Source: Amphiura filiformis
Taxonomy: Eukaryota; Echinodermata; Ophiuroidea; Amphilepidida; Amphiuridae
Assembly (NCBI RefSeq): GCF_039555335.1
Contig: NC_092641.1
Coordinates: 31,494,848-31,558,847 of the forward strand
Reading direction: 5' to 3'
Length of the DNA: 64,000 nt
Both the position numbers and the translations under genes were made by a program. The notes beneath the pieces were generated by a model. The model was not told where the DNA came from, did not search any database, and saw nothing but the letters and a program-made list of their open reading frames with translations. Below are positions 2,640-59,317 of this stretch, piece by piece. Positions within the stretch are counted from its first letter, which is position 1; every line of letters starts with the position of its first letter.

Positions 2640-3907
2640 CTAGACTTAGCTGTGGTCTAAGACCACGAACACAGCCGTGTTGTGACCCCTTATTGACCTT
2701 TGACCCCAAAATATATGAAAGTCCCATAGACATTGGCTAGTGTCAATGTACATTTGCATGTGGCATCACTATGCCATGTTACTTGTGGCAGAAGGGCATT
2801 TTGAAGGTTTTTCGTCTCAGACCGGAAGTGACCCCTTGATGACCTTTGACACGAAATAAAAAATACCACATATACACTGGGTAACCACAATTCATATATG
2901 AACATACCGTTACTGTCCTTTGTTTTTCTTAGCTAATAAAAAATTTTGAAGGTATTTCGTTTTATATCGGAAGTGACCCCTTAATGACCTTTGACCCCAA
3001 ATCTGTGTACACCCCATATACACTGGGTAACACCAATGCATGTGTGCAAGTGGTATCACTGTCCTACGTAATTTGTGGAAGAAGATGCATTTTATAAGTA
3101 TTTCGTTTTATACCGGAAGTGACCCCTTAATGACCTTTGACCCCAAATTAAAAAATACCACATATACACTGGGCAACCACAATTTATGTGTGCATATACC
3201 GTTACTGTCCTACGTTTTTCTCAGCTAATAAAATTGTTTGAAGATATTTCGTTTTATACCGGAAGTGACCCCTTAATGACCTTTGACCCCAAATCTGTGT
3301 ACACCCTATAGACACTAGGTAATTGCAATACATGTGTGCAAGTGGCGTCACTGTCCTACGTAATTTGTGGGAGAAGATGCATTTTAAAGGTTATTTCGTT
3401 TTATACCGGAAGTGACCCCTTAATGACCTTTGACACAAATAAAAAAAAAATATCACATATACATTAGGTAACTGCAAATCAGATGTGAACATTCCGTTAC
3501 TGCCCTATATTTTGTTTAGCTTATAAAATTTTTTGAAGGTATTTCGTTTTATACCGGAAGTGACCCCTTAATGACCTTTGACCCCAAATCTGTGTACACC
3601 ATATAGACACTGGATGATAACAATGCATGTGTGCTAGTGGCGTCACTGTCCTACGTAAGTTGTGGGAGAAGATGCATTTTAGTTGAAATCACGTTTTTGA
3701 CCCCTATGACCCCTGCGTGACCTTTGACCCCACAAGTTTCATGTGACATGTAGGGGCACGGTCAATGATCATTGTGACCAAGTTAAGTCAAAATCGATAT
3801 AAGCATGTGAGTGCTAGAGCAAATGTAATGGTTGACAGAAAGAAGAAAGAAGAAGAAGATCCTGTAAGAAAAAAGACACAGCCGTGACTAACGTCACGGC
3901 TGTGTAA
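2640..3907 (+). mobile_element. HINE-T element, solo copy (non-autonomous, Helentron-like)
   Basis: This is the reference copy. The head (2640-2688) has ctagacttagctgtgg, a 7-bp palindrome gtggtct/agaccac and cacagccgtg. About seven core monomers follow, with the tgacctttgacc motif starting near 2694, 2840, 2985, 3131, 3277, 3424 and 3572 (146-148 bp apart). Monomers alternate between an ATCTGTGTACACC type and an AAATAAAAAATACC type. The tail unit contains the palindrome caatgatcattg and a GA-rich tract, then an 11-bp-stem hairpin (cacagccgtga/tcacggctgtg) ending gtgtaa. Comparison with the empty site near 280 shows clean insertion between As and no target-site duplication. It has no coding capacity. 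The structure resembles the tandem-repeat-cored Helentron-associated elements known from bivalves and flies; family membership is inference. Confidence 0.85.
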
Positions 3908-5291: not shown

Positions 5292-6473
5292 CTAGACTTA
5301 GCTGTGGTCTAAGACCACGTGTTGTGACCCCTTAATGACCTTTGACCCCAAAATATATGAAACCCCATAGACATTGGCTAATATCAATGTATGTGTGCAC
5401 GTGGCATAACTTTGCCATGTTATTTTTGGCAGAAGGGGCATTTTGAAGGTTTTTTGTCTCAGACCGGAAGTGACCCCTTAATGACCTTTTACCCCAAATA
5501 AAAAATACCACGTATACACTGAGTAATATCAATTCATGTGTGAATGTACCGTCTCTGTGCTATATTTTTCTTGGCTGATAAAGTTTTTGAAGTTATTTCG
5601 TTTTATACCGGAAGTGACCCCTTAATGACCTTTGACCCCAAATCTGTGTACACCCCATAGACACTGGGTAATAACAATGCATGTGTGCAAGTGGCATCAC
5701 TGTCCTACGTAATTTGTGGGAGAAGATGCATTTTAAAGGTATTTCGTTTTATACCGGAAATGACCCCTTAATGACCTCTGACCCCAAATAAAAAAATACC
5801 ATATATACATTGGATAAACATAATTGATGTGTGAACATACCATCACTCTCCTATGTTTTACTTAGGTAATAAATTTTATACCGGAAGTGACCCCTTAATG
5901 ACCTTTGACCCCAAATTTGTGTACACCTTATAGACACTGGGTAATAACAATGCATGTGTGCAAATGGCATCACTGTCCTACGTAATTTGTGGGAGAAGAT
6001 GCATTTTATCGGTATTTCGTTATATACCGGAAGTGACCCCTTAATGACCTTTGACCCCAAATAAAAAAATACCACATATACATTGGGTAACTGCAACTCA
6101 TATGTGAACATACCGTTACTGTCCTATGTTTTCCTTAGCTAATAAAATTTTTTTAAAGTATTCCGTTTTATACCGGAAGTGACCCCTTAATGACCTTTGA
6201 CCCCAAATATGTGTACACCCTATAGACATTGGGTAATTACAATGCACGTGTGCAAGTGGCATCACTGTCCTACGTTAAATTTAGGAGAAAATGCATTTTG
6301 AGTTGAAATCGCGTCTTTGACCCCTATGACCCCTGCGTGACCTTTGACCCCCCGAGTTTCATGTGACATGTAGGGGCACGGTCAATGATCATTGTGACCA
6401 AGCTAGGTCAAAATCGATGTAAGCATGTGAGTGCTAGAGCAAATGTAATGGTTGACAGAAGAAAGAAGAAGAA
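5292..6473 (+). mobile_element. HINE-T copy 1 of the left array
   Basis: The head is shortened by loss of the aacacagcc segment. There is no terminal hairpin; the GA-rich tract runs straight into the next head. Its last ~280 bp closely match the end of copy 6 (about 12260-12545), including a gttaaatttaggag variant. Confidence 0.85.
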
Positions 6474-7568
6474 CTAGACTTAGCTGTGGTCTAAGACCAC
6501 AAACACAGCCGTGTTGTGAACCCTTAATCACCTTTGACCTCAAAATATATGAAAACCCCATAGACATTGGCTAATGTCAATGCACGTGTCCACGTGGCAT
6601 CACTTTGCTATGCTTTTTGTGGCAGAAGGGGCATTTGAAGGTATATCGTTTTATACCGGAAGTGACCCTTTACTGACCTTTGACCCCAAATGTGTGCAGA
6701 CCATATAGACACTGTGTTATAACAATGCATGTGTGCAAGTGGCGTCACTGTCCTACGTAATTTGTGGAAGAAGATGCATTTTAAAGGTATTTCGTTTTAT
6801 ACCGGAAGTGACCCCTTAATGACCTTTGACCCCAAATAAAATAATACCATATATAAACTGCGCGTAACCACAATTCATGTGTTAACATACCGTTACTGTC
6901 CTATGTTTGTCTTAGCAAATAAAAATTTTTGAAGGTTTTTCGTTTTATACCGGAAGTGACCCCTTAATGACCTTTGACCCCAAATCTGTGTACACCCCAT
7001 AGACACTGGGTAATAACAATGCAAGTGTGCAAGTGGTGTCACTGTCCTACGTAATTTGTGGGAGAAGATGCATTTTAAAGGTATTTCGTTTTATGTGACC
7101 CCTTAATGACCTTTGACCCAAATTTAAAAAATACCACATATAAACTGGGTAAGAACAATTCATGTGTGAACATACCGTTACTGTCCTATGTTTTGGTTTA
7201 GCTAATAAAATTTTTGAAGGTATTTCGTTTTATACCGGAAGTGACCCTTAATGACCTTTGACCCAAATCTGTGTACACCACATAGACACTGGGTAATAAC
7301 AATTCATGTGTGCAAGTGGCGTCACTGTCATACTTAAGTTGTGGGAGAAGATGCATTTTTAGTTGAAATCACGTGTTTGACCCCTGCGTGACCTTTGACC
7401 CCACAAGTTTCATGTGACATGTAGGGGCACGATCAATGATCATTGTGACCAAGTTAGGTGAAAATCGATGTAAGCATGTGAGTGCTAGAGCAAATGTAAT
7501 GGTTGACAGAAAGAAAGAAGAACCTGTAAGAAAAAGACACAGCCGTGACTAACGTCACGGCTGTGTAA
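6474..7568 (+). mobile_element. HINE-T copy 2
   Basis: Complete head and hairpin tail. It is first in the block duplicated at +8.4 kb; the partner is 14873-15968. One monomer carries an internal deletion (ttttatgtgacccc near 7090) that the partner shares. Confidence 0.85.
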
Positions 7569-8924
7569 CTAGACTTAGCTGTGGTCTAAGACCACGAACA
7601 CAGCCGTGTTGTGACCCCTTAATCACCTTTGACCCCAAAATATATGAAAACCCGATAGACATTGGCTAATGTCAATGCACGTGTCCACGTGGCATCACTT
7701 TGCTATGCTTTTTGTGGCAGAAGGGGTATTTTGAAGGTATATCGTTTTATACCGGAAGTGACCCCTTACTGACCTTTGACCAGAAATGTGTGTACACTAT
7801 ATAGACACTGTGTTATAACAATGCATGCGTGCAAGTGGCGTCACTGTCCTACGTAATTTGTGGAAGAAGAAGCATTTTAAAGGTATTTCGTTTTATTCCG
7901 GAAGTGACCCCTTAATGACCTTTGACCCCAAATAAAATAATACCACATATAAACTGGGTAACCACAATTCATGTGTGAACATACCGTTACTGTCCTATGT
8001 TTTTCTTAGCAAATAAAATTTTTTGAAGGTTTTTCGTTTTATACCGGAAGTGACCCCTTAATGACCTTTGACCCCAAATTTGTGTACACCCCATAGACAC
8101 TGGGTAATAACAATGCATGTGTGCAAGTGGCGTCTCTGTCCCACATAATCTGTGGAAGAAGATGCATTTTAAAGGTATTTCGTTTTATACCGGAAGTGAC
8201 CCCTTAATAAGATTTGACCCCAAATACAAAAATACCACATATACATTGGGTGACTGCAGATCATGTGTGAGCATACCGTTACTGTCCCATGTTTTACTTA
8301 GCTAATAAAATTTTTTGAAGGTATTTCGTTTTATACCGGAAGTGACCCCTTAATGACCTTTGACCCCGAATCTGTGTACACCCCATAGACACTGGGTAAT
8401 AACAATGCATGTGTGCAAGTGGCGTCTCTGTCCTACATAATTTGTGGAAGAAGATGCATTTTAAAGGTATTTCTTTTTATACCGGAAGTGACCCCTTAAT
8501 GAGCTTTGATCCCAAATAAAAAAATACCACATATACATTGGGTGACTGCTGATCATATGTGAACAAACCGTTACTGTGCTATGTTTTACTTAGCTAATAC
8601 AAATTTTGAAGGTTTTTCGTTTTATACCGGAAGTGACCCTTAATGACCTTTTGACCCCAAATCTGTGTACACCACATAGACATTGGGTAATGACAATTCA
8701 TGTGTGCAAGTGGGGTCGCTGTCCTACGTAAGTTGTGGGAGAAGATGCATTTTTAGTTGAAATCACGTTTTTGACCCCTGTGACCCCTGCGTGACCTTTG
8801 ACCCCGCGAGTTTCATGTGACATGTAGGGGCATGGTCATTGATCATTGTGACCAAGTTAGGTCAAAATCGATGTAAGCATGTGAGTGCTAGAGCAAATGT
8901 AATGGTTGACAGAAAGAAGAAGAA
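7569..8924 (+). mobile_element. HINE-T copy 3
   Basis: Intact head; the tail stops in the GA tract without a hairpin. Partner at 15969-17324. The shared aaacccgatagac variant near 7645 and 16045 marks the pair. Confidence 0.85.
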
Positions 8925-10053
8925 CTAGACTTAGCTGTGGTCTAAGACCACGAACACAGCCGTGTTGTGACCCCTTACTGACCTTTGACACCAAAATATA
9001 TGAAAACCCCATAGGCATTGGCTAATGTCAATGTATGCGTGCACGTGGCATTACTTTGCCATGTTATTTGTGGCAGAAGGGACATTTTGAATGTTTTTCG
9101 TCTCAGACCGGAAGTGACCCTTTAATGACCTTTGACCCCAAATCTGTGTACACCCCATGGACACTGAGTAATAACAATGCATGTGTGTAAGTGGCATCAC
9201 TGTCCTGCGTAATTTGTGGGAGAAGATGCATTTTAAAGGTATTTCGTTTTATACCGGAAATGACCCCTTAATGACCTTTGACCCCAAATAAAAAATACCA
9301 TATATACATTGGTTAAAAACAATTCATGTGTGAACATACCATCACTGTCCTATGTTTTTCTTAGCTAATAAATTTTTTTGAAGATATTTCGATTTATACC
9401 GGAAGTGGTCCCTTAATGACCTTTGACCCCAAATCTGTGTACACCACATTGACACTGGGTAATAACAATGCATGTGTGCAAGTGGTGTCACTGTCCTACG
9501 TAATTTGTGGGAGAAGATGCATTTTAAAGGTATTTTCGTTTTATTCCGGAAGTGACCCCTTAATGACCTTTGACCCCAAACAAAAAATACAACATATACA
9601 TTGGGTAACTGCAACTCATATGTGAACATACCGTTACTGTCCTATGTTTTCATTAGCAAATAAAATAATTTAAAAGTATTTCGTTTTTTACCGGAAGTGA
9701 CCCTTTAATGACCTTTGACCCCAAATCTGTGTACACCATATGGACACTGGATAATAACAATGGATGTGTGCAAGTGACGTCACTGTCCTACGTAGTTTGT
9801 AGGAGAAGATGCATTTTGAGTTGAAATCACGTTTTTGACCCCTATGACTTCTGCGTGACCTTTGACCCCACAAGTTTCATGTGACATGTAGGGGCACAGT
9901 CAATGATCATTGTGACCAAGTTAAGTCAAAATCGATGTAAGCATGCGAGTGCTAGAGCAAATGTAATGGTTGACAGAAAGAAGAAAGAAAGAAGAAAGAA
10001 GAAGAACCTGTAAGAAAAAAGACACAGCCGTGACTAACGTCACGGCTGTGTAA
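8925..10053 (+). mobile_element. HINE-T copy 4
   Basis: Complete, with hairpin tail. Partner at 17325-18452. The head monomer has the variant ataggcattgg, also seen in copy 14. Confidence 0.85.
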
Positions 10054-11330
10054 CTAGACTTAGCTGTGGTCTAAGACCACGAACACAGCCGTGTTGTGAC
10101 CTCTTAATCACCTTTGACCCCAAAATATATGAAAACCCCATAGACATCGGTTAATGTCAATGCACATGTCCACGTGGCATCACTTTGCTATGCTTTTTGT
10201 GGCAGAAGGGATATTTTGAAGGTATATCGTTTTATACCAGAAGTAACCCCTTACTGACCTTTGACCCCAAATGTATGTACACCATATAGACACTGTGTTA
10301 TAACAATGCATGTGTGCAAGTGGCGTCACTGTCCAACGTAATTAGTAGAAGAAGAAGAAGCATTTTCAAGATTTTCGTTTTATACCGGAAGTGACCCCTT
10401 AATGACCTTTGACCCCAAATCTGTGTACACCCCATAGACACTGGATAATAACAATGCATGTGTGCAAGTGGTGTCACTGTCCTACAGAATCTGTGGAAGA
10501 AGATGCATTTTAAAGGTATTTCGTTTTATACCGGAAGTGACCCTTAATGAGATTTGACCCCAAATAAAAAAATACCACATATACATTGGGTGACTGCAGA
10601 TCATGTGTGAACATACCGTTACTGTCCCATGTTTTACTTATCTAATAAAATTTTTGAAGGTATTTCGTTTTATACCGGAAGTGACCCCTTAATGACCTTT
10701 GACCCCAAATCTGTGTACACCCCATAGACACTGAGTAATAACAATGCATGTGTGCAAGTGGCATCTCTGTCCCACATAATTTGTGGAAGAAGATGCATTT
10801 TAAAGGCATTTCTTTTTATACCGCAAGTGACCCCTTAATGAGCTTTGACCCCAAATAAAAAAATAATACCACATGTACATTGGGTGACTGCAGATCATAT
10901 GTGAACATACCGTTACTTTGCTATGTTTTACTTAGCTAATACAAATTTTTGAAGGTTTTTCGTTTTATACCGGAAGTGACCCCTTAATGGCTTTGACCCC
11001 AAATCTGTGTACACCACATAGACACTGGGTAATAACAATGCATGTGTGCAAGTAGGGTCGCTGTCCTACGTAAGTTGTGGGAAAAGATGCATTTTTAGTT
11101 GAAATCACGTTTTTGACCCCTCAGACCCCTGCGTGACCTTTGACCCCACAAGTTTCATGTGACATGTAGGGCATGGTCAATGATCATTGTGACCAAGTTA
11201 GGTCAAAATCGATGTAAGCATGTGAGTGCTAGAGCAAATGTAATGGTTGACAGAAGAAGAAAGAAGAAAGAAGAAAGAAAGAACCTGTAAGAAAAAAGAC
11301 ACAGCCGTGACTAACGTCACGGCTGTGTAA
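10054..11330 (+). mobile_element. HINE-T copy 5
   Basis: Complete, with hairpin tail. Partner at 18453-19730. It has a shortened monomer with an agaagaagaagaagc tract near 10350; the same variant heads the copy at 59422. Confidence 0.85.
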
Positions 11331-12545
11331 CTAGACTTAGCTGTGGTCTAAGACCACGAACACAGCCGTGTTGTAACCCCTTAATCACCTTTGACCCCAA
11401 AATATATGAAAACCCCATAGACATTGGTTAATGTCAATGCACGTGTCCACGTTGCATCACTTTGCTATGCTTTTTGTGGCAGAAGGGATATTTTGAAAGT
11501 ATATCGTTTTATACCGGAAGTAACCCCTTACTAACCTTTGACCCCAAATGTGTGTACACCATATAGACACTGTGTTATAACAATGCATGTGTGCAAGTGG
11601 CGTCACTGTCCTACGTAATTAGTGGAAGAAGAAGCATTTTAAAGATTTTCGTTTTATACCGGAAGTGACCCCTTAATGACCTTTGACCCCAAATCTGTGT
11701 ACACCCCATAGACACTGGATAATAACAATGCATGTGTGCAAGTGGCGTCACTGTCCTACAGAATCTGTGGAAGAAGATGCATTTTAAAGGTATTTCGTTT
11801 TATACCGGAAGTGACCCCTTAATGAGATTTGACCCCAAATAAAAAAAAATACCACATATACATTGGGTGACTGCAGATCATGTGTGAACATACCGTTACT
11901 GTCCCATGTTTTACTTATATAATAAAAATTTTTGAAGGTATTTCGTTTTATAGCGGTAGTGAACGACTAATGACCTGTGACGCCAAATTTGTGTACACCC
12001 CATAGACACTGAGTAATAACAATGCATGTGTGCAAGTGGCGTCTCTGTCCCACATAATTTGTGGAAGAAGATGCATTTTAAAGGTATTTCTTTTATACCG
12101 GAAGTGACCCCTTAATGAGCTTTGACCCCAAATAAAAAAAAATACCACATGTACATTGGGTGACTGCAGATCATATATGAACATGCCGTTACTGTGCTAT
12201 GTTTTACTTAGCTAATACAAATTTTTGAAGGTTTTTCGTTTTATACCGGAAGTGACCCCTTAATGACCTTTGACCCCAAATATGTGTACTCCCTATAGAC
12301 ATTGGGTAATTACAATGCACGTGTGCAAGTGGCATCACTGTCCTACGTTAAATTTAGGAGAAAATGCATTTTGAGTTGAAATCGCGTCTTTGACCCCTAT
12401 GACCCCTGCGTGACCTTTGACCCCTGAGTTTCATGTGACATGTAGGGGCACGGTCAATGATCATTGTGACCAAGCTAGGTCAAAATCGATGTAAGCATGT
12501 GAGTGCTAGAGCAAATGTAATGGTTGACAGAAGAAAGAAGAAGAA
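11331..12545 (+). mobile_element. HINE-T copy 6 (recombinant tail)
   Basis: The first ~920 bp match copy 13 at 19731. From about 12250 it switches to the tail type of copy 1 and loses the hairpin. The switch point falls within a conserved monomer sequence, as expected for unequal exchange or template switching between monomers. Confidence 0.85.
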
Positions 12546-13610
12546 CTAGACTTAGCTGTGGTCTAAGACCACAAACACAGCCGTGTTGTTACCCCTTAAT
12601 GACCTTTGACCCCAAAATATATGAAAACCCCATAGACATTGGCTAATGTCATTGTATGTGCACGTGGCATCACTTTGCCATGTTACTTGTGGCAGAAGGG
12701 GCATTTTGAAGGTTTTTCGTTTTATACCGGAAGTGACCCCTTAATGACCTTTGACCCCAAATCTGTGTACACCCCATAGACACTGGGTAATAACAATGCA
12801 TGTGTGCAAGTGGCGTCACTGTCCTACAGAATCTGTGGAAGAAGATGCATTTTAAAGGTATTTCGTTTTATACCGGAAGTGACCTCTAAATGAGATTTGA
12901 CCCCAAATAAAAAAATACCACATATACATTGGGTGACTGCAGATCATGTGTGAACATACCGTTACTGTCCCATGTTTTACTTAGCTAATAAATTTTTTAA
13001 AGATATTTCGTTTTTACCGGAAGTGACCCCTTAATGACCTTTTGACCCCAAATCTGTGTACACCCCATAGACACTGGGTAATAACAATGCATGTGTGCAA
13101 GTGGCGTCTCTGTCCCACATAATTTGTGGAAGAAGATGCATTTTAAAGGTATTTCTTTTTATACCGGAAGTGACCCCTTAATGAGCTTTGACCCTAAGTA
13201 AAAAAAATACCACATATACATTGGGTGACTGCATATCATATGTGAACATACCGTTACTGTGCTATGGTTTACTTAGCTAATAAAATTTTTGAAGGTTTTT
13301 CGTTTTATACCGGAAGTGACCCCTTAATGACCTTTGACCCCAAATCTGTGTACACCACATAGACACTGGGTAATAACAATGCATATGTGCAAGTGGGGTT
13401 GCTGTCCTACGTAAGGTGTGGGAGAAGATGCATTTTTAGTTGAAATCACGTTTTTGACCCCTATGACCCCTGCGTGACCTTTGACCCCACGAGTTTCATG
13501 TGACATGTAGGGGCACGGTCAATGATCATTGTGAATATGTTAGGTCAAAATCGATGTAAGCGTGTGAGTGCTAGAGCAAATGTAATGGTTGACAGAAGAA
13601 GAAAGAAGAA
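12546..13610 (+). mobile_element. HINE-T copy 7
   Basis: Intact head of the gttgttacccc type; the tail stops in the GA tract without a hairpin. It lies between the two duplicated blocks. Confidence 0.85.
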
Positions 13611-14872
13611 TTAGCTGTGGTCCAAGACCACGAACACAGCCGTGTTGTTACCCCTTAATGACCTTTGACCCCAAAATATATGAAAACCCCATAGACATTG
13701 GCTAATGTCAATGTATGTGTGCACGTGGCATCACTTTGCCATGTTATTTGTGGCAGAAGGGGCATTTTGAAGGTTTTCGTCTCAGACCGGAAGTGACCCC
13801 TTAATGACATTTGACCCCAAATAAAAAAATACCACATATGAATTGGGTAACCACAATTCATGTGTGAACATACCGTTACTGTCCTATGTTTTTCTTAGCA
13901 AATAAAAATTTTTGAAGGTTTTTCGTTTTATACCGGAAGTAACCCCTAAATGAACTTTGACCCCAAATATGTGTACACCCCATAGACACTGGGTAATAGC
14001 AATGCATGTGTGCAAGTGGCGTCACTGTCCTACATAATCTGTGGAAGAAGATGCATTTTAAAGGTATTTCATTTTATACCGGAAGTGACCCTTAATGAGA
14101 TTTGACCCAAAATAAAAAATACCACACATACATTGGGTGACTGCAGATCATGTGTCAACATACCGTTACTGTCCCATGTTTTACTTAGCTAATAAAATTT
14201 TTGAAGGTATTTCGTTTTATACCGGAAGTGACCCCTAAATGAACTTTGACACCAAATCTGTGTACACCCCATATACTCTGGTGACAACAATGCATGTGTG
14301 CAAGTGGTGTCTCTGTCCCACATAATTTGTGGAAGAAGATGCATTTTAAAGGTATTTCTTTTTATACCGGAAGTGACCCCTTAATGAGCTTTGACCCCAA
14401 ATAAAAAAAATACCACATATACATTGGGTGACTGCAGATCATATGTGAACATACCGTTACTGTGCTATGTTTTACTTAGCTAATAAAAATGTGTGAAGGT
14501 TTTTCGTTTTATACCGGAAGTGACCCCTTAATGACCTTTGACCCCAAATCTGTGTACACCACATAGACACTGGGTAATAACAATGCATGTGTGCAAGTGG
14601 GGTCACTGTCCAACGTAAGTTGTGGGAGAGGGTGCGTCTTTAGATGAAATCACGTTTTTGACCCCTGTGACCCCTGCATGACCTTTGACCCCACAAGTTT
14701 CATGTGACATGTAGGGGCACGGTCAATGATCATTGTGACCAAGTTAGGTCAAAATCGATGTAAGCGTTTGAGTGCTAGAGCAAATGTAATGGTTGACAGA
14801 AAGAAAGAAGAAAGAAGAAGAAGAACCTGTAAGAAAAAAGACACAGCCGTGACTAACGTCACGGCTGTGTAA
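13611..14872 (+). mobile_element. HINE-T copy 8
   Basis: The head lacks ctagac and begins at ttagctgtggtccaag. It has a full hairpin tail. It is a close relative of the two tandem copies at 53770-56261, so material has moved between the two array blocks. Confidence 0.85.
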
Positions 14873-15968
14873 CTAGACTTAGCTGTGGTCTAAGACCACA
14901 AACACAGCCGTGTTGTGAACCCTTAATCACCTTTGACCTCAAAATATATGAAAACCCCATAGACATTGGCTAATGTCAATGCACGTGTCCACGTGGCATC
15001 ACTTTGCTATGCTTTTTGTGGCAGAAGGGGCATTTTGAAGGTATATCGTTTTATACCGGAAGTGACCCTTTACTGACCTTTGACCCCAAATGTGTGCAGA
15101 CCATATAGACACTGTGTTATAACAATGCATGTGTGCAAGTGGCGTCACTGTCCTACGTAATTTGTGGAAGAAGATGCATTTTAAAGGTATTTCGTTTTAT
15201 ACCGGAAGTGACCCCTTAATGACCTTTGACCCCAAATAAAATAATACCATATATAAACTGCGTAACCACAATTCATGTGTTAACATACCGTTACTGTCCT
15301 ATGTTTGTCTTAGCAAATAAAAATTTTTGAAGGTTTTTCGTTTTATACCGGAAGTGACCCCTTAATGACCTTTGACCCCAAATCTGTGTACACCCCATAG
15401 ACACTGGGTAATAACAATGCAAGTGTGCAAGTGGTGTCACTGTCCTACGTAATTTGTGGGAGAAGATGCATTTTAAAGGTATTTCGTTTTATGTGACCCC
15501 TTAATGACCTTTGACCCAAATTTAAAAAATACCACATATAAACTGGGTAAGAACAATTCATGTGTGAACATACCGTTACTGTCCTATGTTTTGGTTTAGC
15601 TAATAAAATTTTTGAAGGTATTTCGTTTTATACCGGAAGTGACCCCTTAATGACCTTTGACCCCAAATCTGTGTACACCACATAGACACTGGGTAATAAC
15701 AATTCATGTGTGCAAGTGGCGTCACTGTCATACTTAAGTTGTGGGAGAAGATGCATTTTTAGTTGAAATCACGTGTTTGACCCCTGCGTGACCTTTGACC
15801 CCACAAGTTTCATGTGACATGTAGGGGCACGATCAATGATCATTGTGACCAAGTTAGGTGAAAATCGATGTAAGCATGTGAGTGCTAGAGCAAATGTAAT
15901 GGTTGACAGAAAGAAAGAAGAACCTGTAAGAAAAAGACACAGCCGTGACTAACGTCACGGCTGTGTAA
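14873..15968 (+). mobile_element. HINE-T copy 9 (duplicate of copy 2)
   Basis: Nearly base-for-base the same as 6474-7568 at an offset of 8399-8400 bp, with a two-base length difference in one monomer. Confidence 0.85.
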
Positions 15969-17324
15969 CTAGACTTAGCTGTGGTCTAAGACCACGAACA
16001 CAGCCGTGTTGTGACCCCTTAATCACCTTTGACCCCAAAATATATGAAAACCCGATAGACATTGGCTAATGTCAATGCACGTGTCCACGTGGCATCACTT
16101 TGCTATGCTTTTTGTGGCAGAAGGGGTATTTTGAAGGTATATCGTTTTATACCGGAAGTGACCCCTTACTGACCTTTGACCAGAAATGTGTGTACACTAT
16201 ATAGACACTGTGTTATAACAATGCATGCGTGCAAGTGGCGTCACTGTCCTACGTAATTTGTGGAAGAAGAAGCATTTTAAAGGTATTTCGTTTTATTCCG
16301 GAAGTGACCCCTTAATGACCTTTGACCCCAAATAAAATAATACCACATATAAACTGGGTAACCACAATTCATGTGTGAACATACCGTTACTGTCCTATGT
16401 TTTTCTTAGCAAATAAAATTTTTTGAAGGTTTTTCGTTTTATACCGGAAGTGACCCCTTAATGACCTTTGACCCCAAATTTGTGTACACCCCATAGACAC
16501 TGGGTAATAACAATGCATGTGTGCAAGTGGCGTCTCTGTCCCACATAATCTGTGGAAGAAGATGCATTTTAAAGGTATTTCGTTTTATACCGGAAGTGAC
16601 CCCTTAATAAGATTTGACCCCAAATACAAAAATACCACATATACATTGGGTGACTGCAGATCATGTGTGAGCATACCGTTACTGTCCCATGTTTTACTTA
16701 GCTAATAAAATTTTTTGAAGGTATTTCGTTTTATACCGGAAGTGACCCCTTAATGACCTTTGACCCCAAATCTGTGTACACCCCATAGACACTGGGTAAT
16801 AACAATGCATGTGTGCAAGTGGCGTCTCTGTCCTACATAATTTGTGGAAGAAGATGCATTTTAAAGGTATTTCTTTTTATACCGGAAGTGACCCCTTAAT
16901 GAGCTTTGATCCCAAATAAAAAAATACCACATATACATTGGGTGACTGCTGATCATATGTGAACAAACCGTTACTGTGCTATGTTTTACTTAGCTAATAC
17001 AAATTTTTGAAGGTTTTTCGTTTTATACCGGAAGTGACCCCTTAATGACCTTTGACCCCAAATCTGTGTACACCACATAGACATTGGGTAATGACAATTC
17101 ATGTGTGCAAGTGGGGTCGCTGTCCTACGTAAGTTGTGGGAGAAGATGCATTTTTAGTTGAAATCACGTTTTTGACCCCTGTGACCCCTGCGTGACCTTT
17201 GACCCCGCGAGTTTCATGTGACATGTAGGGCATGGTCATTGATCATTGTGACCAAGTTAGGTCAAAATCGATGTAAGCATGTGAGTGCTAGAGCAAATGT
17301 AATGGTTGACAGAAAGAAGAAGAA
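15969..17324 (+). mobile_element. HINE-T copy 10 (duplicate of copy 3)
   Basis: Matches 7569-8924 including the hairpin-less end. Only scattered single-base and short length differences are visible. Confidence 0.85.
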
Positions 17325-18452
17325 CTAGACTTAGCTGTGGTCTAAGACCACGAACACAGCCGTGTTGTGACCCCTTACTGACCTTTGACACCAAAATATA
17401 TGAAAACCCCATAGGCATTGGCTAATGTCAATGTATGCGTGCACGTGGCATTACTTTGCCATGTTATTTGTGGCAGAAGGGACATTTTGAATGTTTTTCG
17501 TCTCAGACCGGAAGTGACCCTTTAATGACCTTTGACCCCAAATCTGTGTACACCCCATGGACACTGAGTAATAACAATGCATGTGTGTAAGTGGCATCAC
17601 TGTCCTGCGTAATTTGTGGGAGAAGATGCATTTTAAAGGTATTTCGTTTTATACCGGAAATGACCCCTTAATGACCTTTGACCCCAAATAAAAAATACCA
17701 TATATACATTGGTTAAAAACAATTCATGTGTGAACATACCATCACTGTCCTATGTTTTTCTTAGCTAATAAATTTTTTTGAAGATATTTCGATTTATACC
17801 GGAAGTGGTCCCTTAATGACCTTTGACCCCAAATCTGTGTACACCACATTGACACTGGGTAATACAATGCATGTGTGCAAGTGGTGTCACTGTCCTACGT
17901 AATTTGTGGGAGAAGATGCATTTTAAAGGTATTTCGTTTTATTCCGGAAGTGACCCCTTAATGACCTTTGACCCCAAACAAAAAAATACAACATATACAT
18001 TGGGTAACTGCAACTCATATGTGAACATACCGTTACTGTCCTATGTTTTCATTAGCAAATAAAATAATTTAAAAGTATTTCGTTTTTTACCGGAAGTGAC
18101 CCTTTAATGACCTTTGACCCCAAATCTGTGTACACCATATGGACACTGGATAATAACAATGGATGTGTGCAAGTGACGTCACTGTCCTACGTAGTTTGTA
18201 GGAGAAGATGCATTTTGAGTTGAAATCACGTTTTTGACCCCTATGACTTCTGCGTGACCTTTGACCCCACAAGTTTCATGTGACATGTAGGGGCACAGTC
18301 AATGATCATTGTGACCAAGTTAAGTCAAAATCGATGTAAGCATGCGAGTGCTAGAGCAAATGTAATGGTTGACAGAAAGAAGAAAGAAAGAAGAAAGAAG
18401 AAGAACCTGTAAGAAAAAAGACACAGCCGTGACTAACGTCACGGCTGTGTAA
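17325..18452 (+). mobile_element. HINE-T copy 11 (duplicate of copy 4)
   Basis: Matches 8925-10053 with the hairpin tail. Its tail plus the following head recur at 59318-59750. Confidence 0.85.
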
Positions 18453-19730
18453 CTAGACTTAGCTGTGGTCTAAGACCACGAACACAGCCGTGTTGTGACC
18501 TCTTAATCACCTTTGACCCCAAAATATATGAAAACCCCCATAGACATCGGTTAATGTCAATGCACATGTCCACGTGGCATCACTTTGCTATGCTTTTTGT
18601 GGCAGAAGGGATATTTTGAAGGTATATCGTTTTATACCAGAAGTAACCCCTTACTGACCTTTGACCCCAAATGTATGTACACCATATAGACACTGTGTTA
18701 TAACAATGCATGTGTGCAAGTGGCGTCACTGTCCAACGTAATTAGTAGAAGAAGAAGAAGCATTTTCAAGATTTTCGTTTTATACCGGTAGTGACCCCTT
18801 AATGACCTTTGACCCCAAATCTGTGTACACCCCATAGACACTGGATAATAACAATGCATGTGTGCAAGTGGTGTCACTGTCCTACAGAATCTGTGGAAGA
18901 AGATGCATTTTAAAGGTATTTCGTTTTATACCGGAAGTGACCCTTAATGAGATTTGACCCCAAATAAAAAAATACCACATATACATTGGGTGACTGCAGA
19001 TCATGTGTGAACATACCGTTACTGTCCCATGTTTTACTTATCTAATAAAAATTTTTGAAGGTATTTCGTTTTATACCGGAAGTGACCCCTTAATGACCTT
19101 TGACCCCAAATCTGTGTACACCCCATAGACACTGAGTAATAACAATGCATGTGTGCAAGTGGCATCTCTGTCCCACATAATTTGTGGAAGAAGATGCATT
19201 TTAAAGGCATTTCTTTTTATACCGCAAGTGACCCCTTAATGAGCTTTGACCCCAAATAAAAAAAATACCACATGTACATTGGGTGACTGCAGATCATATG
19301 TGAACATACCGTTACTGTGCTATGTTTTACTTAGCTAATACAAATTTTTGAAGGTTTTTCGTTTTATACCGCAAGTGACCCCTTGATGACCTTTGACCCC
19401 CAATCCGTGTACACCACATAGACACTGGGTAATAACAATGCATGTGTGCAAGTAGGGTCGCTGTCCTACGTAAGTTGTGGGAAAAGATGCATTTTAGTTG
19501 AAATCACGTTTTTGACCCCTGTGACCCCTGCGTGACCTTTGACCCCACAAGTTTCATGTGACATGTAGGGGCATGGTCAATGATCATTGTGACCAAGTTA
19601 GGTCAAAATCGATGTAAGCATGTGAGTGCTAGAGCAAATGTAATGGTTGACAGAAGAAGAAAGAAGAAAGAAGAAAGAAAGAACCTGTAAGAAAAAAGAC
19701 ACAGCCGTGACTAACGTCACGGCTGTGTAA
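18453..19730 (+). mobile_element. HINE-T copy 12 (duplicate of copy 5)
   Basis: Matches 10054-11330. The extra C in aaaacccccatagac near 18530 is shared with the copy at 59422 and not with copy 5. Confidence 0.85.
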
Positions 19731-20951
19731 CTAGACTTAGCTGTGGTCTAAGACCACGAACACAGCCGTGTTGTAACCCCTTAATCACCTTTGACCCCAA
19801 AATATATGAAAACCCCATAGACATTGGTTAATGTCAATGCACGTGTCCACGTTGCATCACTTTGCTATGCTTTTTGTGGCAGAAGGGAGATTTTGAAAGT
19901 ATATCGTTTTATACCGGAAGTAACCCTTACTAACCTTTGACCCCAAATGTGTGTACACCATATAGACACTGTGTTATAACAATGCATGTGTGCAAGTGGC
20001 GTCACTGTCCTACGTAATTAGTGGAAGAAGAAGCATTTTAAAGATTTTCGTTTTATACCGGAAGTGACCCCTTAATGACCTTTGACCCCAAATCTGTGTA
20101 CACCCCATAGACACTGGATAATAACAATGCATGTGTGCAAGTGGCGTCACTGTCCTACAGAATCTGTGGAAGAAGATGCATTTTAAAGGTATTTCGTTTT
20201 ATACCGGAAGTGACCCCTTAATGAGATTTGACCCCAAATAAAAAATACCACATATACATTGGGTGACTGCAGATCATGTGTGAACATACCGTTACTGTCC
20301 CATGTTTTACTTATCTAATAAAATTTTTTGAAGGTATTTCGTTTTATACCGGAAGTGACCCCTTAATGACCTTTGACCCCAAATCTGTGTACACCCCATA
20401 GACACTGAGTAATAACAATGCATGTGTGCAAGTGGCGTCTCTGTCCCACATAATTTGTGGAAGAAGATGCATTTTAAAGGTATTTCTTTTATACCGGAAG
20501 TGACCCCTTAATGAGCTTTGACCCCAAATAAAAAAAATACCACATGTACATTGGGTGACTGCAGATCATATATGAACATGCCGTTACTGTGCTATGTTTT
20601 ACTTAGCTAATACAAATTTTTGAAGGTTTTTCGGTTTATACCGGAAGTAACCCCTAAATGAACTTTGACCCCAAATATGTGTACACCCCATAGACACTGG
20701 GTAATAGCAATGCATGTGTGCAAGTAGGGTCGCTGTCCTACGTAAGTTGTGGGAGAAGATGCATTTTTAGTTGAAATCACGTTTTTGACCCCTGTGACCC
20801 CTGCGTGACGTTTGACCCCACAAGTTTCATGTGACATGTAGGGGCATGGTCAATGATCATTGTGACCAAGTTAGGTCAAAATCGATGTAAGCATGTGAGT
20901 GCTAGAGCAAATGTAATGGTTGACAGAAGAAAGAAAGAAAGAAAGAAAGAA
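19731..20951 (+). mobile_element. HINE-T copy 13 (duplicate of copy 6 front)
   Basis: Matches copy 6 until about 20645 and then follows another tail type without hairpin. This fixes the right edge of the duplicated block. Confidence 0.85.
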
Positions 20952-22097
20952 CTAGACTTAGCTGTGGTCTAAGACCACGAACACAGCCGTGTTGTGACCT
21001 CTTAATGACCTTTGACCCCAAAATGTATGAAAACCCCATAGGCATTGGCTAATGTCAATGTATGCGTGCACGTGGCATTATTTTGCCATGTTATTTGTGG
21101 CAGAAGGGGCATTTTGAACGTTTTTCGTCTCAGACCGGAAGTGGCCCCTTAATGACCTTTGACCCCAAATCTGTGTACACCACATTGACACTGGGTAATA
21201 GCAATGCATGTGTGCAAGTGGTGTCACTGTCCTGAGTAATTTGTGGGAGAAGATGCATTTTAAAGGTATTTCGTTTTATACCGGAAATGACCACTTAATG
21301 ATCTTTGACCCCAAATAAAAAAATATCATATATACATTGGTTAAACACAATTCATGTGTGAACATACCATTACTCTCCTATGTTCTTCTTAGCTAATACA
21401 TTTTTTTGAAGATATTTCAATTTATACCGGAAGTGGCCCCTTAATGACCTTTGGCCCCAAATCTGTGTACACCACATTGACACTGGGTAATAGCAATGCA
21501 TGTGTGCAAGTGGTGTCACTGTCCTACGTAATTTGTGGGAGAAGATGCATTTTTAAAGGTATTTCGTTTTATTCCGGAAGTGACCCCTTAATGACCTTTG
21601 ACCCCAAATAAAAAAATACCACATATACATTGGGTAACTGCAACTCATATGTGAATATACCGTTACTGTCCTATGTTTTCCTTAGCTAATAAAAAAATTT
21701 GAAAGTATTTCGTTTTATACCGGAAGTGACCCCTTAATGACCTTTGTCCCCAAATCTGTGTACACCATATAGACACTGGTTAATAACAACGCATGTGTGC
21801 AAGTGGCGTCACTGTCGTACGTAATCTGTAGGAGAAGATGCATTTTAGTTGAAATCACGTTTTTGACCCCTATGACCCCTGCGTGACCTTTGACCCCACA
21901 AGTTTCATGTGACATGTAGGGGCACGGTCAATGATCATTGTGACCAAGTTAAGTCAAAATCGATATAAGCATGTGAGTGCTAGAGCAAATGTAATGGTTG
22001 ACAGAAAGAAGAAAGAAAGAAGAAAGAAGAAGATCCTGTAAGAAAAAAGACACAGCCGTGACTAACGTCACGGCTGTGTAAAGAAAGAAAGAAAGAA
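20952..22097 (+). mobile_element. HINE-T copy 14
   Basis: Complete element with hairpin ending at 22081, followed by a 16-bp GA spacer before the next head. Confidence 0.85.
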
Positions 22098-22269
22098 CTA
22101 GACTTAGCTGTGGTCTAACCCACGAACACAGCCGTGTTGTGAACCTTTAATAGCTTTTAATGACCTTTGACCCCAAAATATATGAAAACCCCATATACAT
22201 TGGCTAATGTCAATGTATGTGTGCACGTGGCATCACTTTGCCATGTTATTTGTGGCAGAAGGGGCATGT
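22098..22269 (+). mobile_element. HINE-T copy 15, head only
   Basis: The head palindrome has lost a few bases (gtctaacccacg). The sequence follows the first monomer until gggcat and then changes abruptly into unrelated DNA at about 22268. Its missing remainder is not found immediately beyond the Helentron. Confidence 0.85.
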
Positions 22270-23587: not shown

Positions 23588-25060
23588 CTAATACGTTATG
23601 GCAATAAATGTTGGCTGATGGTAGCTGTAATATGTTGTCATTACAGATGCTTGGTATTGCTTGGGCTTGGGCTTGACATAAATGTGATCTAGCAGAGTTC
23701 CTTTAGCGGTGGTAGAATTGGAGATGACCTGATGGTATTGTCTGAAAGCGGGTAAAATGGTTTCTTTGAATAAGTTGCGATTGAAATCTCCGACGAGTAC
23801 TTTGTAATCTGTATCTAGTACTTCCATTTGGGCTGTGATATTGTTCATTTCTGTGCTAAACGTGCTTGTACTTGTTGCCATAGGCTTGTATATTGTCGCA
23901 ACCAGCAAGTTTGTTTTTCCACTTGTTCTTATGGCAAGTATATCACATTCATTACTGAAAAGTGGTACTACTGTATAACGGATGCCGTTCTGAATATACA
24001 TAGCGACACCTCTACCATTTCCAGAGTTAACTACTTCCAATGTGTATCCTTCAATTGAAACAGAGTCGAGGTTACTGTCGTCGGTAAGCCATGTTTCAGA
24101 CAAACAGATCACATGGGCCTTTCTTATTTCTGGGTTCTTTTTGAGATCATCTATGTGTCGATGTAAACTCTGTATGTTGTGATGAGCGATTACAAAATTT
24201 GTGTTGTGGTCGATTTCTGTCAAAGGGTTTGCTTTGGAAAGATCACATGTAGGCATTTTGGCGACGTTTGCTTCGATATCTTCATTACAAAAGATGCGGG
24301 ATTCATCATAATCCATCAAATACATTCCTTCAAGATGAGTGACTCGACTGAGTGCCACGTAAGCCATCGATTTTCTTAGACCTTTCATAGAAATCACTGC
24401 CTGATCTGTCGTTTGGCCCTGCACTTTATGAACAGTAACAGCCCATGCAAGTTTCAATGGCATCTGTTCTCTTGTCGTAGTGAATGTTCTACCTTTGACC
24501 TGGAATGATTCTTTACGTGGCTTTATTGGTATACATCCTGCATAGTGTGGTGGAATAAACTGGGTAGTTCGTGTTTTTGCTCCAACTCGATCACTGTCAA
24601 ATTTGACATATACAACAATTGGCATATTTTGAGAATTGCAGAACTCGATTCCTTTCACTATGCCAGGAACTCCGTTACATAGTCCATCTGAAACATCTAC
24701 ATTTGCTATGAGCATAACTCGAGCATCTACTGCTAATTTCAGGTAAGATGCTAAAGAAGTATCATCTGCACGTGTTGTTCTATGTGGCGTTTCATGCACT
24801 TGGATAATTCGTCCACCTCTTTGGTCAACGTCATTAGCTTTAATGGTGAACATTTCAGTGTTCAGTGACGCAAGTTTTCTTTCATTGTGGCTATCGACAT
24901 CTTTGTTAAGGTAAAACAAATGCAATGCATCAGGAGGCGTTGTTAGATTATTTTCCTCAACTCTTCGTGATTCGAGCAATTCTTTGTCTGTCTTTTGCAG
25001 TGGTTGTTTCTTTTTTCCGTTCACGTAGCCGATTAAGCATTTGAGCAAAGATAGCATCAT
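23588..25060 (-). pseudogene. Helentron RepHel C-terminus: PIF1 helicase motifs and AP-like endonuclease
   Basis: The upstream two thirds carries helicase motifs V and VI: LAWAVTVHKVQGQT followed by AYVALSRVTHLEGMYLMDYD, typical of SF1B PIF1-like enzymes. The last ~210 residues form an endonuclease/exonuclease/phosphatase fold. Metal- and substrate-binding motifs are visible in order: HHNIQSL, SETWL, GRGVAMYIQ, VGDFNRN, LLDHIYV and YYSYHQPT; the last stands where SDH is usual, with Tyr in place of Asp. In the family this endonuclease is thought to nick target DNA and is shared with non-LTR retrotransposons. The frame ends naturally at 23588. Upstream it joins the Walker B segment across a frame break near 25020. 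Confidence 0.85.
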
Positions 25061-25529
25061 CTTTTTGGCGCATGATTTCTTTGAGCTCAACTATTTGAAA
25101 GAGTGGGTTCCATATATCTTTCAAAATTTCGTCGTGCGGAAAGCATAATGGTGTAGGTGGGCTAATTGGTGGCAATTGATAGAAATCTCCCACTGCTAGG
25201 ATTGACACATTGCCAAAGTCAGTATATGTTCCTTTAATCTGCTGCAACCGTCCGAATATATATGTCAGCTGAGTTGTACTAACCATTGAAATTTCGTCTA
25301 TAATTACTAATTGCAAATGCCGATATTTGACTCGTAAAGTGTTTAGTGATTCTTCACCAAGTGGTTTGTATTCTTTTTGAGATTTAGGATTAATTTTTAA
25401 TCCGGAGCAGATTGTTTGACCACAAATATTGAATGCAGCTGTTCCAAGGTGAGCAAGTGACAAGACTGTCATATCTTCGGCGGATTCTGTCATGCGTGCA
25501 AATACTTTTTTGCATAGTACTGAATGCAT
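24957..25529 (-). pseudogene. Helentron PIF1 helicase core, middle part
   Basis: Motifs Ia to III are readable: LAHLGTAAFNICGQTI, the Walker B VIIDEISMV, AVGDFYQLPP, and ELKEIMRQ before the next conserved block. This segment would couple ATP hydrolysis to DNA strand separation during rolling-circle transposition. It continues the Walker A segment across a frame break near 25520. Confidence 0.85.
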
Positions 25530-26545
25530 TTGATAACATGCGACTTTCCGGTTCCTGCACCTCCAGTAACAAACATTTGAAATGGGTCGACACTCTGATC
25601 TCTTACTTTATCGTCACACCATTTTGAAACATGATTAAATACCTGACGTTGCTTTTCGTTCAGTTGGCGCATCATGTGTTGTGCTTGTTCTTCGGTTATT
25701 ACAGGATCGCATGTTTCAATCGCACATCTAGGTTGATCTGCCTGATGTATATTTTGTCGTGACTGCAGTTCAGGAACTTCAATTTCGGCAAATTCATCAT
25801 CTGAATCTTGAACTAAATTGCGGTCTAATTGGTCATCCAGACGTTGTTGTTCACCTTGTGGATTGATTGCTGCCCATGCATCTTGAAGGTCTGCAACATG
25901 TTGAATCGCATCCCATGCTTCATCTAGTTGGTCAGTTGCTGGTTCAAACTCTTGCATATTTTCTTTAACTATATCTTTGACTTGTGCTCTTTTGCCATTG
26001 ATATTCACATTACCCTTCATATGATAATCTTCATATTTGGTAAAGGCATTTGGCTTGATTTGTTCATTTCTGTGTGGCAAATATAAGCGTAGCATGTTCA
26101 TATGATAACGCTCACTATCTTTCTTAACTGATACTCTTGGGTAACGAATAACAGCTGGCTTTCCTCTTGTACGTTCTTTCATCTTGATGGAGCAATTTTG
26201 CAGTTCGATTGGTTTATTTCGTTGGCAAGATTTTGCTTGTTTCTCATTACTTGCTTCATCACCTACATCTTGTTCATTCTCTGATTCAGTTTGCTCAACA
26301 TCTGTTTCGTTATCTGCTTCATTGTTTGTTTCGTCATTACGTACATCTTGTTTATTCTCGGGTTCAGTTTGCTCAATATCTCCAGCATCTGTTTCGTTAT
26401 CTTCTTCATTGTCTGTTTCGTCATCAATTAATTCATCTGGACTGGCATTGATATTATCTGATTTGCCTGATACTTGATAATGACTGGAGAAAAATTTAGC
26501 CATGCACATGTTATTATACTTTGAGGTTCTTGGTCTACCTATATA
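25490..26545 (-). pseudogene. Helentron Rep-helicase linker and Walker A
   Basis: An acidic repeat (DETDNE-, QTEPENKQDV- and QTESENEQDV-type units, about residues 27-85) is followed by a basic stretch and a region rich in WDAIQ and LQDAWAAIN that precedes the helicase in this superfamily. It ends with LNEKQRQVFNHVSKW and the P-loop VTGGAGTGKSHVIKC. In the upstream direction the frame continues as [15 protein letters not shown] before a break near 26570. The acidic insertion looks like an expanded tandem repeat within the protein. Confidence 0.85.
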
Positions 26546-26960
26546 CTTTTCAATTTGGGATGTTTTCCAAACTTGTTCAGATTTCCTGCGTTTGCTTGTA
26601 CCTCTTTCAATGGCAATGATATTTTGTGTCCGTCCAAATCAGTTTGAACAAAGATGACCTTTCTGGTACTATTTCGTAGAGGCATGCTACAGATTAGGTA
26701 GATGGCGCCCATGACACTGATTTCTCTATGTTGCAAATAAACACTTCCAAGTTTTCTCAATTGCGAAACAGCATCATCATTTCCCAATTCCCTTGCTTCT
26801 CTCTGTGCATTTCTTAACAAATCACCCATTTCTCTTTCAGATTTGGTAATGTAGGAAAGCATGTACATGGCGGCACCAAATGGATCTAACACGAACTGTA
26901 TGTCCATATTTCCATTCCAGCATCGAATCAAGTGTGGGTTGTAATTGTTGATCCATTGAT
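26539..26960 (-). pseudogene. Helentron Rep domain, catalytic tyrosine segment
   Basis: [19 protein letters not shown] is followed by [10 protein letters not shown], which matches the Yx3YxxK signature of Helitron Rep, where tyrosine attacks DNA to start rolling-circle strand transfer. The tyrosine and lysine of the signature are both present. A conserved [20 protein letters not shown] block follows. This piece is broken from the preceding segment near 26990. Confidence 0.85.
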
Positions 26961-26981
26961 CTTGGATACGTCGTTTCAGGT

Positions 26982-27311
26982 TTATTGTGTTTTTCTTGTA
27001 ACCAATGCTAAGTACTCTTCAAATTCAGATTGTGTAACTTGTGCGGTACGGAGTATTTGTTCAAAATCTGCGTCAGTGTTACCTTCGACAAGTTCCCAAA
27101 TCTTCTTTAAAGTTTCCTTTGCCTTTGTCTCATCTTCTTTTCTATGTTCAAGAGCTTCTTGATATTCGAGATCTTCTTCATTTCCTTCTATCCCTTCAAC
27201 TGGTCTGGAGATAAATGTTCTGTTGGATGGTGGTTTTGGAAAATTAAACCGACATACTTTTCCAGTTTTCCGACATGATTTCGAATGACTTTTTACTGTG
27301 TAGTTGCACAT
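26982..27311 (-). pseudogene. Helentron Rep domain, segment between HUH and Tyr motifs
   Basis: Conserved SKSCRKTGKVCRFNFPKPPS followed by a charged helical linker. The Cys-rich CRFNFP phrase is standard between the HUH and Tyr motifs of Helitron Rep. Both ends are frame breaks (about 27300 and 26990). Confidence 0.8.
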
Positions 27312-27850
27312 TGGTCACTAGTTCATGTAATTCTTCATCAGTCTCAGGGGGCAGTTCACAAGATATATACTTGTCAACAAACTCTGTAATATCTTCATCA
27401 GAATCTTCATCAAACTTCGGTGCATCTTTAACCCATACCATCATGTGAATGTGTGGCCAACCTCTTTGTTGGAACTCTGTCCTGTAGTAATAGTCCTCAA
27501 CTTTACCAATTGGGTTAGCTGATGAGCACATTACATCTTTAATTAAAGTGTGCACTCTTCTTTCAAACATTCTGGCTGCTGCTGCAGGATTAGACATGAT
27601 GATAGTACAGTGATCTTCCCATGTCATGTTCTTATGTTGCTCTTCAGTCATTGGTGGTTTGCCTTGTGATATTAGGATACCATTGGTTATTTCGATCCAG
27701 CGTCTGTCTGCAGCACTAAATGACATGAAAAATGTTGGGATTCCTAATTGACGTATCATTGCAAACAGATCTCGCTTTGATCTTTCCCAATAAGCAGGTG
27801 TTCCTCTTATTTGTGTCAGGAATCTATATCCTTCGTCCCTTTTGATTAGG
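27244..27850 (-). pseudogene. Helentron Rep domain, HUH motif
   Basis: It opens with the conserved block GYRFLTQIRGTPAYWERS and AMIRQLGIPTFFMSFSAADRRW, then MFERRVHTLIKDVM. Next is the metal-binding HUH motif in the form QQRGWPHIHMMVWVKDAP (His-Ile-His). This is the nuclease half that binds the transposon 3' end. The motif residues are intact although the reading frame as a whole is not. Confidence 0.9.
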
Positions 27851-28215
27851 TTTTTACTTGTTCCTTGTCTCGCAACATAGATGCAGTTATCTTTCTACCT
27901 CCTGCTGTCTTAGTGTTACCTACTCTAATTGCGATAGAAATACCGGAGTGAATTTGGTGAACCTCTGTTGCATACAAAGCAAAATATGTATTCCGGATTC
28001 CTGACAAATCTGTTGTCCATTGAAAATAAGCGAGCATTAAAGTATCGTGAAGGTGATATCTTTTTTTCTCTCTTTTCCATGTAGGTATTTTTGCCATCAG
28101 GAAATTCAGTTGGACAACTCTTTGATTCCATTTCAAAAACCTTTTCAGGTATATTTCCTTCGCCAGGAGCAAGACACATTATTGATTCATCATGTTTGTC
28201 TGCAACATATTGAGC
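27851..28215 (-). pseudogene. Helentron conserved segment upstream of Rep
   Basis: Readable as YVADKHDESIMCLAPGEG, then EFPDGKNTYMEKREKKISPS, RYFNARLFSMDNRFV and RNPEYIF. This is the standard block (ApGEg...Fp.G...R...Yf..Rl...dnRFa) that precedes the Rep nuclease in Helitron-superfamily proteins. Frame breaks lie near 28000 and 27853; the latter looks like loss of one A from an A-run. Confidence 0.8.
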
Positions 28216-28220
28216 AAAAT

Positions 28221-31822: not shown

Positions 31823-32005
31823 TTTCAAAGAAGTAATGTAATTGAATAAAAAGTGATAAATGGCGTTTAGGCTAATTGGTATAAGTTTAATAAACACAAA
31901 CAATGAAACTTTTAATACTATATAACGGCAAAAATATTGACGATATCTATTAAAATACGTGAAAAGTAGAAAATTATAACTACAAGAATACAACAATTGT
32001 AACAA

Positions 32006-59303: not shown

Positions 59304-59317
59304 TTACACAGCCGTGA

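Follow-up and report, generated by a model that had tools for sequence, protein, structure and literature searches.

A tandem array of monomers of about 146 bp in the genome of the ophiuroid Amphiura filiformis carries, many times over, a 14-base string that corresponds to a direct repeat 1 (DR1) site for HNF4 and for nuclear receptors of the RXR type. This locus raises the question of whether such a motif has been kept for the sake of receptor binding or has been copied along with the repeat in which it lies. The question was addressed in a window of 64,000 nucleotides (assembly GCF_039555335.1, contig NC_092641.1, positions 31,494,848 to 31,558,847), which is the whole stretch analysed and the one to which all coordinates below refer. 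The results point, with a probability of about 0.78, to a family of non-autonomous Helentrons (HINEs) whose cassettes are stacked head to tail, with half-sites arranged as DR1 and as a repeat with five-base spacing (DR5) that were multiplied passively. The coordinates of the features are collected in Table 1.

The anatomy of the element could be read directly from complete cassettes. Nineteen plus-strand cassettes have both ends, each passing from a head through monomers of two types, A and B, to a tail, with A monomers next to each other in some; the head string CTAGACTTAGC occurs 19 times on the plus strand of the window and twice on the minus strand. The CTAG 3' end sits at the low coordinate of each cassette, and the element runs 5' to 3' on the minus strand. 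Followed in that direction, a complete cassette opens with a 13-bp repeat, a 4-nt loop, the complement of the repeat and a TTC-type microsatellite, continues with a 5' module holding one DR1 and with the monomers, and closes with an 11-bp subterminal repeat, the hairpin GTGGTCTTAGACCAC and the CTAG end. The 3' subterminal repeat, ACACAGCCGTG, is complementary to the 5' one, where the arms are 13 bp long.

The substructures described for HINE and DINE-1 elements are subterminal inverted repeats, a palindrome 8-35 bp from the 3' end, a microsatellite and central repeats (Thomas et al. 2014, PMC4067079). The subterminal inverted repeats measure 12-15 bp in mite HINEs (PMC4067079) and 11-12 bp in oyster (PMC7492417). 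All of these substructures are found in the present cassettes, with subterminal inverted repeats of 11 bp, the hairpin 12 nt from the 3' end, an inverted repeat and microsatellite in the left module, and central tandem repeats. Insertion into T-rich sequence without modification of the target is a further likeness (PMC4067079), and it is observed here, with no clear target site duplication, at the empty sites of 2640-3905 and 5292-60512. For the first of these, the joined flanks match positions 121-423 (95.1% over 306 columns), and the insertion lies in oligo-A (T on the other strand) with no clear target duplication. For the second, the sequences flanking 5292 and 60512, once joined, align over the junction with a further copy of the surrounding repeat (470/500 bases, 74.3% over 501 columns). 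The empty-site flanks show oligo-A (plus strand) on the left and AA on the right, where a 2-bp AA duplication is indistinguishable from the placement of the ends. The elements are best assigned to the HINE class because of the subterminal inverted repeats, the terminal hairpin, the left-module microsatellite and the empty sites in oligo-A/T. A reading of the GAA-rich ends as the tail of a SINE or LINE was dropped, given that the empty sites and the subterminal repeats fit a Helentron.

The array departs from HINE and DINE-1 elements in its CTAG 3' end, which is Helitron-like and has been reported for a proto-Helentron (PMC4067079), and in the stacking of cassettes into about 25 kb. The subterminal repeats are also placed differently, the 3' one 29 nt away from the 3' end and the 5' one 0 nt from the 5' end, at variance with the mite families, in which the distances are 38-60 bp and 2-4 nt, although these are not given as a general rule (PMC4067079). 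Cg_HINE of the Pacific oyster, compared by structure, has the same modules, namely a 5' subterminal inverted repeat, a complementary inverted repeat and a microsatellite on the left, and a 3' subterminal inverted repeat and a palindrome on the right (PMC7492417). Its central repeats are likewise satellite-like, with monomers predominantly of 140-180 bp and one cluster averaging 146, and conserved segments are common to otherwise dissimilar monomers; the two alternating monomer types of the present array are the difference (PMC7492417).

The blocks at 5292-22268 and 52736-60512 are apparently the two parts of a single array, with one site of insertion, that is divided by 30.5 kb of other DNA, because the left flank of 5292 and the right flank of 60512 form a single empty site. 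The 30.5 kb interrupts a cassette, the joined edges of which match other cassettes across the join, net 15-25 bases shorter in the best rows; the array would have come first and the interruption afterwards. From the family membership we infer that the cassettes were copied by rolling-circle transposition using Helentron protein. They would then have been joined head to tail, probably through missed termination, which has been proposed for Helitron arrays (PMC4067079), and through later unequal exchange, including the 8.4-kb duplication described with the other rearrangements below. The links between stacked cassettes keep the 5' palindrome in some cases and lack it in others.

The motif noticed in the sequence-only reading is real and far more frequent than expected by chance. 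With at most one mismatch, GGGGTCAAAGGTCA (minus strand in most copies) is found 139 times on both strands of the 64,000 bases, whereas 100 dinucleotide shuffles contain 0.03 such matches on average. The exact 14-mer TGACCTTTGACCCC occurs 94 times in the window and 62 times within 5292-22269, and each of the 94 has the two RGKTCA half-sites one base apart that define an HNF4/RXR element. Monomers were collected independently of the motif, by a profile that spans the entire monomer and was seeded with nine slices; the search, repeated three times, gave 170 matches in the window, with the motif columns covered in 169. Within 5292-22269 there are 109 profile-detected monomers that cover the motif, in agreement with the earlier estimate of about 100 or more copies. 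The additional half-site upstream was also correctly recognized, the A and B consensus each containing one DR1 and one DR5. The statement that almost every monomer carries a perfect site did not hold, since by model columns 64 of these 109 are exact, 27 have one mismatch, 15 have two and 3 have three or more.

Exact copies are unevenly distributed among the parts of the cassette. Within 5292-22269 they are found in 36/48 A monomers, 10/32 B monomers, 5/15 heads and 13/14 tails, and in the whole window in 53/70, 15/52, 10/23 and 20/24, respectively, the 24 tail rows including two weak matches at 46 kb, one of which counts as exact by model columns without being exact as a string. When the motif is anchored on the element ends instead, it is exact in 8/21 heads and 19/22 tails. 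By model columns, 6/8 are exact in 2640-3905 and 27/49 in 52736-60512, and the fragment at 51161-51336 has no intact motif; the total by this count, 98/169, includes copies with an inserted base, which the plain string count of 94 does not. The inner half-site is disrupted in TGAGCTTTGACCCC and TGAGATTTGACCCC, two of the most frequent variants among B monomers. Perfect sites number from 2 to 6 per cassette among the 18 unbroken cassettes. The consensus sequences of A, B, heads and tails all include the three half-sites though the other sequence differs, and the tail consensus keeps them with a DR5 spacer that differs from that of the monomers. The Helentron region at 22270-34500 has no DR1 match, and 22270-52735 has a single one, at 45871. 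An isolated GAGGTCAAAGGTCA is located at 45870, near a different repeat at 46083-46480 in which TGACC half-sites recur mostly every 10-11 bp.

The two monomer types, both of about 146 bp and mostly alternating, were separated by clustering of the 120 full-length monomers, with mean distances of 0.12 and 0.14 within the groups and 0.30 between them. They share a block of 59 columns (33-91) in which the A and B consensus differ at 1/59 positions with no near-fixed difference, against 33/81 columns, 13 of them near-fixed, outside it. The 14-mer sits inside this block. So does an ETS-like string, ACCGGAAGT, which is equally frequent, with 92 copies in the window against 94 of the DR1 14-mer.

These figures give something close to even odds, a little short of them, that what matters is the whole 59-bp block and not the DR1, the block being either under constraint in active copies, where, for example, a DNA-binding protein of the element or the host might dock on it, or homogenised by exchange between A and B. 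This would be compatible with passive multiplication of the half-sites. Besides the near identity of the A and B consensus within the block, the varying numbers of monomers and the A-A neighbours point to unequal exchange, and oyster HINE monomers likewise share conserved segments while the remainder is dissimilar (PMC7492417). Minor alleles shared by A and B, however, number 19 against 14.6 expected in the block, an excess no greater than that outside it (23 against 13.1), so that exchange within the block is not directly demonstrated. Nor is any protein known to bind the 59-bp block, which counts against this explanation.

The probability of such a motif arising by chance was estimated for one ancestral monomer, given that the copies are not independent. 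For this purpose the A or B consensus, lengthened by 40 bases, was dinucleotide-shuffled 20,000 times. A DR1 is present in 0.16% (A) and 0.15% (B) of the shuffles, a receptor-type pair of any kind with spacing 0-8 in 1.7% (A) and 1.2% (B), and two or more receptor-type arrangements in a single monomer in 0.025%. One named motif is therefore unlikely by chance, but this one was chosen after the fact among many factor families. Tentatively, and with slightly less weight than constraint or exchange of the block, the half-sites may have originated by chance and internal repetition, a TGACCYY unit having been reiterated in the ancestral monomer and all the rest being copying, which again is compatible with passive multiplication. 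The three half-sites do resemble reiterations of TGACC(CC/TT), the other TGACC-rich repeat at 46083-46480 has them at other spacings, and the 1.2-1.7% for a pair of any kind applies to a motif that could have been picked from many families; the rarity of the DR1 itself and of multiple arrangements in the shuffles speaks against such an origin.

Conservation was measured as nucleotide diversity per column over columns 1-140 of the distinct monomers, 60 of A-type and 37 of B-type. Partial matches (50/170) were dropped, leaving 120 full ones, 97 of them distinct; the heads and tails, mostly among those dropped, were measured apart. In the pooled set, the diversity of the 14-mer is 0.082, compared with 0.205 for all columns and 0.099 for columns 33-73, and it ranks 22 of 127 among windows of 14 columns. 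In B monomers the 14-mer is slightly more variable than the mean (0.126 vs 0.115; rank 92/127). In tails the 14-mer has a diversity of 0.070, compared with 0.101 on average (rank 35 of 173 windows), and in heads one of 0.068, compared with 0.114 (rank 68 of 177). Retention of the exact 14-mer is 0.75 in A (rank 3 of 127) and 0.32 in B (rank 94), and it ranks 9 of 41 among the windows whose A and B consensus are identical. By parsimony, the 14 columns have undergone 15 changes in A and 19 in B, 34 together, and the probability of so few changes among random columns of the block is 0.91 for B and 0.48 for A and B combined.

Several observations weigh against a passively multiplied HINE motif. 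On the side of element identity, a search of the window outside the arrays found neither a copy of the cassette ends nor an autonomous partner that shares them. The nearby Helentron at 23588-32023 was considered as the direct partner of the cassettes, and no common ends were found. On the side of the motif, A monomers keep the 14-mer at a diversity of 0.042, against a mean of 0.135 and 0.093 for the rest of the block (rank 3/127), and so few changes in A have a probability of 0.10 among random columns of the block and 0.035 among all columns. Of the changes inside the 14-mer, 22 fall on the 12 half-site columns (1.8 per column) and 12 on the remaining two columns (6 per column); 9 of these 12 lie at the CCCC/AAA edge, where they may be due to slippage. 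All three half-sites are in register in 16/22 tails, and two or more receptor-type arrangements are, as stated, rare in shuffled monomers.

The sequence-only reading had described the 14-mer as more conserved than its neighbours, including in heads and tails. This is the case for A monomers and is not the case for B monomers or heads; the tails have the rank and the frequent exact copies given above, and the rank of the pooled set is reached inside the block that A and B share. Compared with the monomer average the outcome is mixed, the pooled 14-mer being well below it yet near the value of the block, with A clearly better kept and B slightly worse. Selection on the motif as such is not supported by these patterns. 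The motif looks like a passenger and not the point of the repeat, because over all units it is no better kept than the adjacent block sequence and because B monomers were amplified all the same with few exact copies. The heads with few exact copies, the fragment at 51 kb that lacks an intact motif and the equal abundance of the ETS-like string point the same way. The 59-bp block, with its TGACC half-sites, would have been amplified inside the HINE and carried the half-sites along, and the copies would have decayed afterwards, B monomers and heads now being those that least often have the exact motif.

At the sequence level, the proposal that the mobile array spreads receptor-like sites was borne out, a perfect DR1-type element having been multiplied by it. 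The suggestion that a receptor drives transcription of the element itself found no support, given that the arrays contain no open frame of at least 110 aa and that no DR1 match lies in 22270-34500. It is unlikely that the DR1/DR5 block functions as a receptor-response module by which HNF4, RXR or a different receptor would open up the array and aid copying or transcription in particular tissues. The perfect match and spacing are what such a module would have, as are the three half-sites common to A, B, head and tail consensus, the strong conservation in A and the frequent exact copies in tails, and there is a precedent in Caenorhabditis Helitrons with bound heat-shock elements (PMC6927752). 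These have to be set against the absence of the exact motif from most B monomers and heads, the retention of the three-half-site string in only 3/21 heads, and the same lack of long open frames and of DR1 in the Helentron region. A more elaborate form seems quite improbable, namely that A monomers and tails are composite receptor modules (DR1 and DR5, in A with the adjoining ETS-like site) selected to put the timing of copying under a hormone or fatty-acid receptor, with B monomers as relaxed spacers; if it were true, each new insertion would bring in many receptor sites close together. The sequence gives no indication that receptor binding maintains the half-sites, which are likeliest to be latent receptor-like sites, passively multiplied.

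The spread of receptor motifs by repeats is already known. Among the elements that spread other regulatory sites, ISX is a Helitron. Alu repeats contain HNF4 sites, for which the idea of a sink was discussed (PMC3252374), as well as DR2 sites (PMC1785376). The likeness is that a mobile repeat has multiplied receptor motifs; the difference is that binding was demonstrated there by binding arrays or ChIP (PMC3252374, PMC1785376). Functional factor sites have also been spread as heat-shock elements by Caenorhabditis Helitrons (PMC6927752), and the binding sites of a regulatory protein or complex by the ISX element in Drosophila (PMC4384637). Sites are thus dispersed by mobile elements in these cases as in the present one, with function reported for them (PMC6927752, PMC4384637); the sites described here, in this comparison as in that with Alu, are sites at the level of sequence.

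Searches of open-licence papers turned up no Helentron repeat with DR1 sites, most repeat consensus sequences being in databases outside that literature. In the same literature, the exact 14-mer string appears in one paper, on a carp sex marker, and five longer strings gave no match. Searches there for Helentron with nuclear receptor returned no paper, and those for Helitron with HNF4 only papers unrelated by title and start of abstract. Satellite DNA with nuclear receptor gave none whose title deals with satellites that serve as receptor sites, the phrase "transcription factor sink" occurred in no paper, and those listed for Helentrons and repeats showed nothing on receptors. The exact core and head patterns had 0 matches in viral contigs, as had the core in bacterial and archaeal genomes, where an animal repeat is not expected.

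This case illustrates how readily selection is read into a perfect receptor motif in a repeat. Although the motif is genuine, it has mostly disappeared from one of the two monomer types, which was amplified nevertheless. If copies in open chromatin bound receptors, Helentron satellites would be a means of rapidly seeding hormone-responsive clusters, and the contrast between A and B in a single array would then provide natural intact and broken sites.

Table 1. Features of the window, with strand and the evidence on which each is based.
Feature	Position	Strand	Evidence
Single complete cassette, probable HINE, at a separate site	2640..3905	-	Paralogous empty site
5' terminus of the element, with 13-bp subterminal repeat, loop of 4 nt and complementary inverted repeat	3876..3905	-	Sequence; centre has 16 copies in the window
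Left-module microsatellite, GAA-type	3838..3859	-	Sequence; similar in other cassettes
Subterminal inverted repeat of 11 bp on the 3' side, complementary to that on the 5' side; 29 nt to the 3' end	2669..2679	-	Sequence
3' terminal hairpin GTGGTCTTAGACCAC	2652..2666	-	Sequence; 12 nt from the CTAG end
First half of the probable HINE array, tandem cassettes	5292..22268	-	Monomer profile matches, cassette layout, flank empty site
Apparent second half of the array, with inverted segment at about 57774-59312	52736..60512	-	Profile matches, cassette layout
Isolated fragment of the array repeat, 14-mer degraded	51161..51336	-	Profile search
One instance of the 59-column block common to A and B	8021..8079	-	Monomer alignment
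Example of the DR1 14-mer GGGGTCAAAGGTCA	8062..8075	-	Motif search
Third half-site GGGTCA, forming a DR5 with the inner half-site of the DR1	8051..8056	-	Sequence; A and B consensus
ETS-like ACCGGAAGTG in the same block	8043..8052	+	92 window copies of ACCGGAAGT
Helentron-type open reading frames, several frames, with Helitron_like_N, PIF1 helicase and endonuclease domains	23588..32023	-	Pfam; in the DNA splitting the array

Further features were seen in and around the array. A duplication of about 8.4 kb lies within it (6474-20928), in which the heads at 6474, 7569, 8925, 10054 and 11331 recur 8399-8400 bases on, at 14873, 15969, 17325, 18453 and 19731, with an identical order of monomer types. 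The segment at 57774-59312 is inverted relative to the rest of the second half and has rearranged head pieces at its edge. The 5' palindromic module is tandemly repeated without monomers at 57618-57774 and at 60320-60512, with about 65 bp per unit in the latter. Four tRNA matches are present, at 4967-5039, 61032-61104, 62309-62381 and 63584-63656; the three on the right are spaced about 1.28 kb apart in repeat units, which the flanks of the array resemble.

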